Shown here one piece after another: positions 16,752-29,552 of a DNA stretch of 42,743 nt. The notes below the pieces were generated by a model that ran no database searches, had not been told where the DNA came from, and saw only the letters and a list, made by a program, of their open reading frames with translations. Each line of letters starts with the position of its first letter. Position 1 is the stretch's first letter. A program made the position numbers and the translations under genes. Origin of the DNA: an uncultured Clostridia bacterium (lineage in GTDB: Bacteria; Bacillota; Limnochordia; Darwinibacteriales; DTU012); assembly GCA_900019385.1 (NCBI GenBank), contig FIZJ01000003.1:1-42743 (forward strand), given 5' to 3'.

Positions 16752-16985
16752 AAAAAAGCTTTTTACATCCAAGGGACGTAAAAAGCTTCCGCGGTACCAC
16801 CCTAGTTGATTATGCATGAACAGCACAACCCACTCTTCATCCGGTAACGGCGGACATCCGGCCCAGCCTACTCCCAGTTCAGCCGGCAGCTCAAGAGTGA
16901 ATTTCAGCCAACTTGTCCCCCGGTGGGCTCTCAGTCTGCGGCCCGCCGTCCCTGTGGTTTCCATTGGCTTACTTGTCTCTGTCAT
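16752..16985 (-). promoter_or_regulatory. T-box riboswitch, Phe (UUC specifier)
   Basis: The conserved T-box/antiterminator sequence lies at 16789-16805 (AGGGTGGTACCGCGG on the minus strand). It is followed by a 15-bp terminator stem (16756-16770 with 16774-16788) and six T. Stem I shows the AGTA motif (16970-16973), matching helices AGCCAA/TTGGCT and AGAG/CTCT, and UUC at 16899-16901 followed by A in the specifier loop. Uncharged tRNA-Phe should stabilise the antiterminator and allow pheST transcription. Confidence 0.95.
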
Positions 16986-17022
16986 CGCTTTTGACGTTGA
17001 TTTGACATAGACAATGATTGCG

Positions 17023-22875: not shown

Positions 22876-22965
22876 CAAGGATCCCTCCTTCAAACCGGAC
22901 TTCGCTTTTAGTCTCTGCCCGTGGGAACCAGATTAACCACTGGGATCAATGCCTGTTCTGGAAAA

Positions 22966-23008: not shown

Positions 23009-23082
23009 TGGAGGCGGCACCCAGATTCGAACTGGGGATCGAGCTTTTGCAGAGCTCTGCCTTACCACTTGGCCATGCCGCC
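23009..23082 (-). tRNA. tRNA-Cys (anticodon GCA)
   Basis: A full cloverleaf is visible on the minus strand. The 7-bp acceptor stem is GGCGGCA/TGCCGCC. The anticodon loop CTGCAAA, on a GAGCT/AGCTC stem, gives anticodon GCA. The T-arm is CCCAG-TTCGAAT-CTGGG. The discriminator base U73 is typical of tRNA-Cys, and CCA is encoded (23009-23011). Confidence 0.95.
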
Positions 23083-23104: not shown

Positions 23105-23133
23105 ATTTTACCACCCGATCGGCCCCATGTCAA
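23105..23133 (-). promoter_or_regulatory. Promoter of tRNA-Cys
   Basis: The minus strand has TTGACA (23128-23133), a 17-bp spacer and TAAAAT (23105-23110), placing the start about 16 bp before the mature tRNA. Confidence 0.7.
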
Positions 23134-23488
23134 GGATGGGCGGCTGAAAAAAGGGTTTTAGCTGGAAAGAAATACCATTCCCGCCAGGTATAAATACCGC
23201 CCAGCGGGACACCATATAGATGCGGTGATAAGCAACGCTGCACCGCGCCTAATCCAGAATCGAAGCCTGACTTGCTTAAGACCGCTGCCGCTGAAATGCA
23301 AGAATGGTTTTCAAGCTTGTCACCGCTGCCATCGGTTCTGGTTAGGCAGCCATGGAACAGCATATGTGCACCAGATGCACCAGCAGATCCAGTCTACCGG
23401 TGCGGCAGAGGAAAGCCAACAACCTTCTTCGCTTCAAGCAGTCGGCCTTAAGCTTAAGGGAGGAGCCTCAATAGGCTCCTCTTTTTCG
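23134..23488 (+). ncRNA. Gene-free stretch with a candidate plus-strand structured RNA
   Basis: About 355 bp without a credible protein gene. The plus strand ends in an excellent terminator (23460-23486) although all flanking genes run on the minus strand. Several hairpins can form: CCCGC/GCGGG enclosing GGTAT/ATACC (23180-23208), GCGGTG/CACCGC (23222-23246), GCTGCC/GGCAGC (23325-23350) and GTGCA/TGCAC (23366-23380). A 14-bp perfect palindrome (23446-23459) precedes the terminator. I found no matching plus-strand promoter and do not recognise it as 6S, RNase P, SRP or tmRNA. The 5' end is unknown. Confidence 0.3.
23460..23486 (+). terminator. Plus-strand intrinsic terminator next to the pyrR stop
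   Basis: A 9-bp perfect stem GAGGAGCCT/AGGCTCCTC (23460-23468 with 23473-23481), loop CAAT, followed by TTTTT on the plus strand. On the minus strand the tail is not T-rich, so it does not suit pyrR. Confidence 0.75.
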
Positions 23489-23489
23489 T

Positions 23490-24965
<1,476 letters not shown>

Positions 24966-29299: not shown

Positions 29300-29520
29300 A
29301 AAAAACTCTCATCCCATAAGGGACGAGAGCTACCCGCGGTACCACCCTAGTTAAGGCTAACGCCAAAGCCTTCACTTGTCAGCGATAACGGAACCACCGA
29401 TCAGCCTACTGCCAGTTCAGCTGATAACTCCGAGGTGATTTTCAAAGAAACCTTGGTGCCGGGCTCTCACCTTTCCCCGGCTCTCTGGGACCGTTGATTT
29501 CTTCTACTCTCCTCTTCACA
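29300..29520 (-). promoter_or_regulatory. T-box riboswitch, Ile (AUC specifier)
   Basis: The T-box sequence is at 29334-29350. It is followed by a terminator (29306-29315 with 29320-29329) and six A on the plus strand giving a T-tract. In stem I, GAGG/CCTC and AGAAGAAA/TTTCTT helices frame an AGTA-containing loop and the 3' loop with AUC (29437-29439) followed by A. It senses tRNA-Ile charging for ileS. Confidence 0.95.
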
Positions 29521-29552
29521 GTCTATTGCCTATGCCGTTTCAATCATAAGTA

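Follow-up and report, generated by a model that had tools for sequence, protein, structure and literature searches.

The interval between the tRNA-Cys gene and pyrR in the window, the whole 42,743-nucleotide stretch of DNA analysed here, is supported by comparison with related genomes as a plus-strand gene for a structured RNA that belongs to no known Rfam family. The sequence evidence supports the gene, its helices, the type of its promoter and, less directly, its strand. We propose that this RNA probably belongs to a new forespore family, with a pseudoknotted core that would serve as a scaffold or binding platform.

An earlier note, made from the letters of the window, had suggested a structured RNA on the plus strand at this place. 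That suggestion is now supported by covariation among relatives, by synteny and by a promoter motif that is conserved on the plus strand at a near-fixed distance from the first helix (helix a). The note had the element begin at 23134, but the conserved fold begins near 23222 and is preceded by promoter-like boxes at 23188–23216, while 23105–23133 is occupied by a promoter-like site of the minus strand. The element does lie between tRNA-Cys and the end of pyrR, and the stretch is free of genes as described: the interval holds short ORFs only, the longest of which on the plus strand (95 codons, GTG start) extends into pyrR. A covariance model built for the RNA, R3, matches the window copy, which is part of its training set, at G000:C3:23222–23489. 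We rejected a conserved coding gene. Judged by length, the longest ORF inside the RNA has a median of 29 codons and a maximum of 62 across 26 copies, and RBS-like sites before an ORF of at least 15 codons are rare (3/26). The coordinates of the RNA, its parts and its neighbours are listed in Table 1.

Table 1 Features of the RNA locus and its surroundings, in positions of the window.
Feature	Position	Strand	Remarks
tRNA-Cys	23009-23082	minus	neighbour of the RNA
Sigma-A-like promoter site	23133-23105	minus	fits tRNA-Cys
Promoter boxes GTATA (23188-23192), 17 nt, CACCATA (23210-23216)	23188-23216	plus	promoter-like, forespore sigma-F/G type
Non-coding RNA, ~265 nt	23222-23487	plus	predicted 5' end at helix a; predicted 3' end at the terminator T-run
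Helix a, 5' strand GCGGTGATAAGC	23222-23233	plus	partner 23315-23326
Helix d, 5' strand GCTGCACCG	23237-23245	plus	partner 23398-23406
Helix c, 5' strand, outer GCCTAATC and inner CCAGAATCGAAG	23247-23265	plus	partner 23330-23347
Helix b, 5' strand GCTTAAGACCG	23274-23284	plus	partner 23443-23453
Helix a, 3' strand GCTTGTCACCGC	23315-23326	plus	partner 23222-23233
Helix c, 3' strand	23330-23347	plus	partner 23247-23265
Small hairpin e, GTGCA-loop-TGCAC	23366-23380	plus	next comes a largely unpaired segment in which a YAG is common
Helix d, 3' strand CGGTGCGGC	23398-23406	plus	partner 23237-23245
Helix b, 3' strand CGGCCTTAAGC	23443-23453	plus	overlaps the palindrome 23446-23459
Terminator hairpin, stem 23456-23468 / 23473-23485, T-run 23482-23486	23456-23486	plus	kept in relatives
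pyrR	23490-24041	minus	convergent neighbour, gene end at 23490

The class of the RNA had not been recognised from the sequence, and Rfam did not supply one. Searching Rfam 15 (4227 families), we found no match to the window copy at the gathering score and none up to E = 5. Nothing fell on the RNA at the gathering score in 16 related loci either; five far sub-cut-off matches overlap it in L051, L059, L064 and L070, the best being MicX, on the opposite strand, with E = 0.02 and 28.6 bits against a cut-off of 75. Among the best-ranked literature matches listed, no paper describes the RNA.

Of the 36 genomes of the order that we examined, 32 gave a copy of the RNA; 22 of these belong to family f3, nine to f1 and one to f4. 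BLASTN recovered the region from each of the four remaining genomes of the genus, but from none of 35 further genomes searched. RNA and pyrR share a contig in 28 of the 32 genomes, with the RNA converging on pyrR or uraA; in G022, G027, G029 and G033 the RNA is on a contig other than that of pyrR, or no pyrR was found. Each genome has a single copy, save for weak extra matches in G010, G023 and G030. The copy of the f4 genome, G011, was identified only by its place, promoter motif and topology. Beside the RNA of one genome of the window's genus (L005, G001) we found no tRNA-Cys; the promoter-like sequence persists there and is followed by another ORF.

Presence of the RNA tracks the genes of sporulation. 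A sigma-G gene scored above cut-off in 31 of the 36 genomes, and all 31 carry the RNA. G007, which is 87% complete, has the RNA and SASP genes, and its single below-cut-off match is sigma-F-like in look. G009, G012, G014 and G016 gave no sigma-G or SASP match, and the RNA was not found in them. The gap from uraA to tRNA-Cys in G012 and G014, about 90 and 130 nt, is too short for the RNA; in G009 and G016 the contigs end and the models used are insensitive, and absence is read from the synteny in G012 and G014. Since these four genomes span two families, the correlation between RNA and sigma-G rests on at most two losses. Although the rest of the order sporulates, these genomes seem to have lost spore formation itself, in one lineage or in two.

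Outside the order we found nothing convincing with the models at hand, which are insensitive. Model R2 gave no match at E = 0.001 in 36 genomes of the class outside the order; it also misses eight of the nine f1 genomes and G011, which limits how its result outside the order can be read. Across 299 genomes of the phylum, R3 matched in four genomes of the genus and 12 others, and missed the true G008 copy, which the same model finds when given the locus. In five of the 12 the match was confined to the terminator part of the model, and in the other seven (8 places) we saw by eye a terminator-like hairpin and no GHATR-N17..19-CANNNTA motif. A combined scan for promoter, terminator and topology over loci L046–L165, with a terminator rule that misses most true copies, returned seven candidates, six of which are this RNA.

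The counts of promoters, topology and T-runs given here cover 26 of the 32 copies (all but those of G022, G027, G028, G029, G030 and G033). When the strong stems of these copies were listed, common long-range helices appeared in one order, a-d-c-b-a'-c'-d'-b'. Helices d and c are nested, and the units a, (d,c) and b cross one another in an ABCABC pseudoknot arrangement, which is rare among known RNAs. Because a and b cross the others, no nested fold can show all four helices. The 14-bp palindrome reported earlier, CCTTAAGCTTAAGG, is indeed present at 23446–23459, where its left half belongs to the 3' strand of helix b, but its palindromic form is not kept in relatives. In a topology search the copies scored 72.8–109.9, and 25 of the 26 exceeded the best of their own 40 shuffles; the search windows were fixed after the copies had been viewed, and the shuffles passed through the same search. 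L064 was the single copy that did not beat its own shuffles (72.8 versus 75.3).

Covariance analysis in relatives, a check that the earlier note had suggested, revealed compensatory changes in the conserved structure, as looked for in structured non-coding RNAs generally. In each of two alignments, A3 and A4, one of 8 and the other of 9 sequences, 17 pairs changed on both sides once the crossing helices were included, compared with 9.0 in shuffles and with none of 500 shuffles as high. Sliding the partners along the alignment reduced these changes to 2–9 pairs. Counted by helix in A4 and A3, both-side changes numbered 1 and 1 in helix a, 3 and 6 in d, 7 and 6 in c, and 4 and 4 in b; with one such pair in each alignment, helix a leans more on conservation within families. 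In A4, pairing of helix d is only 65.8%, and pair types are no more numerous than in shuffles (35 versus 34.2). Among 19 CM-aligned sequences, whose alignment was itself fitted to the structure, both sides had changed in 23 of 35 nested pairs (versus 11.9) and in 13 of the 14 pairs of helix c. Finally, when 5' strands were paired with the 3' strands of other copies, pairing fell from 0.95–0.97 to 0.52–0.64; this swap covered 16 of the 26 copies, whose own strands had been picked for pairing.

About 35 nt ahead of helix a, a relaxed motif, GNNTA-N17..19-[CT]ANNNTA, occurs in 22 of the 26 copies, against 0.67 (maximum 4) in shuffles. With the near-duplicate copies L002, L003, L004, L005 and L066 left out, it occurs in 17 of 21, against 0.46. 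The stricter GHATR-N18-CANNNTA is found in 15 of 26 copies, against 0.02 in shuffles. Scored with a matrix from SASP genes, the distance from the end of the second box to helix a is 5 nt in 22 of the 26 copies and 6 nt in two. A sigma-A pattern was found upstream of the RNA in one copy of 26, with 1.20 expected from shuffles, and sigma-E, sigma-K and sigma-H patterns in 1, 0 and 0 of 26. The earlier note had pointed to the lack of a clear plus-strand promoter. For the window by itself this remains true, as its own boxes, GTATA-N17-CACCATA, are weak alone (23% of 200 shuffles score as high), but across the family there is a motif, of forespore rather than sigma-A type.

A matrix from SASP upstreams that was seeded with the sigma-G consensus, and is thus not blind, gave the RNA upstreams a score of 4.65, compared with 0.78 in shuffles and a largest shuffle mean of 1.99. 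As a control within the same genomes, the relaxed motif was present in 18 of 37 SASP-gene upstreams (0.98 in shuffles, maximum 6), and the seeded SASP model had an 18-nt spacer in 92%; two stricter forms of the motif occurred in none of the 37. An unseeded motif search on the SASP upstreams gave another motif, and here the RNA upstreams scored 1.35 versus −0.79 in shuffles. At the level of the family, a conserved promoter of the sigma-F/G type was found with the relaxed consensus and the same-genome SASP control. Promoters of sigma-F and sigma-G overlap, so the two cannot be told apart at the RNA. Sigma-F and sigma-G of C. difficile are described as promiscuous in the promoters they read (PMC7438776).

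We propose that the locus probably encodes, as a gene in its own right, a non-coding RNA specific to the forespore. During sporulation, RNA polymerase with sigma-G, and perhaps also with sigma-F, would start at about 23222, and the terminator would end the RNA at about 23487. The RNA, made in the forespore, would fold into a compact core of helix a, the nested helices d and c and the long helix b, with all helices formed together and their strands interlocked. Such a fold would leave a small number of conserved segments unpaired and on display, near hairpin e and at the YAG segment ahead of d'. The RNA would act in trans, offering a protein or a second RNA a scaffold or binding platform, and would not be a plain antisense. 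More tentatively, and with less than even confidence, we consider that the RNA might be a new class whose function needs the compact ABCABC fold: a forespore or spore RNP scaffold, a ligand sensor or even a catalyst, not a base-pairing regulator, and needed wherever the order sporulates. What appears new is the family and its architecture; forespore non-coding RNA as a kind has precedents. Few forespore RNAs are known, and their functions are largely open. This would be a second conserved forespore family, next to the CsfG-type RNA of the same genomes, and its conserved fold is unusually intricate. With such a family it becomes testable whether endospores use structured RNAs beyond base-pairing regulators.

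The main rival to this proposal is a forespore base-pairing small RNA of the CsfG/Bvs196 kind, with a mainly protective fold and a function in pairing with mRNAs. We regard it as possible but unlikely. The nearest functional precedents are forespore RNAs of sigma-F and sigma-G. CsfG, described as conserved among spore-formers (PMC12456014), is reported to be forespore-restricted and under sigma-F/G control in Bacillus (PMC9147052). Bvs196 (S547) is described as a 294-nt independent transcript with a terminator, found only in the forespore and dependent on sigma-F and mainly on sigma-G, at the hinT-ecsA locus, with an RNAalifold structure and a presence in 253 Bacillus genomes (PMC9147052). By that description, the RNA of Bacillus velezensis and its relatives resembles ours in size, in having its own terminator and in forespore type, and is set apart by its locus. 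Some unpaired stretches of our RNA are also conserved within a family, which speaks for this rival. Between families, however, the sequence between the helices differs strongly while the topology stays, and the CU-rich core of CsfG, TTCCTCCGGTTTCTCCTCTCCC, is absent: all 26 copies have at least 8 mismatches out of 22 on either strand, and no site with 3 or fewer mismatches was found in the window.

CsfG itself (ylbH, RF00516, a model reported to describe the strand opposite to CsfG; PMC3574147) was rejected as the identity of the RNA, since it lies at another locus, its core is absent and the model gave no match at the RNA up to E = 5. The window genome carries both RNAs. Its best RF00516 match lies elsewhere (C6:41852–41945, L232), between RecG and RsmD-CoaD, and contains the CU-rich core; the score is below the family cut-off, and we assigned it to the CsfG type by its core, strand and neighbours. 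This core occurs at the CsfG-type loci L230–L234, and CsfG-type RNAs with this same core were seen in G008, G011, G031 and Tepidanaerobacter. To cover such CsfG-type RNAs, the ylbH model of Rfam seems too restrictive. The RF00516 search of six genomes of the order gave no match in G005 and a weak one in G010 (E = 0.7). CsfG is a stand-alone RNA gene, as we propose for our RNA. In the genomes examined, a relaxed promoter-like motif takes the same form at both RNAs: it was seen, without a shuffle control, at each of five CsfG-type loci, of which four belong to this order and one to Tepidanaerobacter. In contrast to our RNA, which lies beside pyrR, CsfG lies beside rsmD (ylbH).

That the element acts in cis on its neighbours, either as the 3' UTR of ytaF or as a terminator or antisense element for pyrR-uraA, seems to us improbable. 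The gene for the sporulation membrane protein YtaF was found in 19 of the 36 genomes, all of them RNA-bearing; in 17 it lies directly upstream of the RNA and on the same strand, and the RNA in turn converges on uraA or pyrR. The T-run of the end hairpin, which is longer on the pyrR-uraA strand in most copies (see below), may well serve that operon too. Against this, 13 RNA-bearing genomes have no YtaF match, for which we rejected dependence on ytaF, and in the window's genus YtaF occurs in G001 only, away from the RNA. In other genera examined pyrR is followed by uraA and then by the RNA on the opposite strand, but uraA is absent from this place in the window's genus. The RNA also has its own promoter motif, with the second box at the same 5-nt distance from helix a in 22 of 26 copies, and termination would need no interlocked fold.

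It is very improbable that the functional molecule comes instead from the minus strand, as a pyrR or uraA 3' UTR would, for example. Both strands fold better than shuffles (z = −4.5 for plus, −4.7 for minus), so folding energy cannot pick between them. The end hairpin is ambiguous as well. The plus-strand terminator that the earlier note had seen in the window is there, a hairpin with a T-run. A terminator scan of the window did not list it, probably because the stem absorbs the T-run through G-T pairing. From this terminator the note had concluded that a plus-strand transcript exists, an argument that holds within the window's genus but is weaker than it looked: among the 26 copies the plus-strand T-run is longer in 8, including all five of the genus, equal in one, and shorter than that of the minus strand in 17. 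Across the order, the terminator is not good evidence for the plus strand. The core of the hairpin, AAAGAGGAGC, is near-invariant in family f3 (in A3, 10 of its 11 pairs show no variation), and the hairpin may end both transcripts, serving the pyrR-uraA strand too. For a minus-strand RNA, however, its place would be on the 5' side of the fold, and the promoter motif is on the plus strand. The aligned helices contain more G-U than C-A cells (37 versus 15 in A3, 17 versus 12 in A4 and 41 versus 19 in A6, which are not three independent counts as A3 and A6 have genomes in common), and this excess favours the plus strand.

Least probable of all is that the RNA is a known housekeeping RNA, or CsfG, in strongly diverged form, as size and single copy would fit but 6S RNA lies elsewhere in all nine genomes searched, a CsfG-type RNA occupies the rsmD-coaD locus of the same genome and the window copy matches nothing in Rfam even at permissive E-values. 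We rejected 6S RNA (RF00013) because, in addition, it gave no covariance match at the RNA; the window genome has its 6S RNA at G000:C44:13289–13471. Among the housekeeping RNAs, the genome-wide search covered 6S RNA. The raiA motif RNA (ModT), described as a conserved structured non-coding RNA of Bacillota and studied in Clostridioides difficile (PMC11706538), differs in that the Rfam search gave no match to it at our RNA.

Two T-box leaders were seen elsewhere in the window, both on the minus strand, at 16769–16994 and 29316–29528; the latter is just upstream of an ORF that by eye resembles isoleucyl-tRNA synthetase. Nearer to the RNA, the minus strand carries a forespore-type motif, GGTTA-N18-GAGACTA, at 22938–22909, upstream of ku (22893) and ahead of genes of the Ku and LigD type. 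A similar forespore-type motif follows tRNA-Cys in the three relatives of the genus that we viewed (L002–L004), a count made without a control. From these motifs, the NHEJ genes near the RNA may be forespore genes too.
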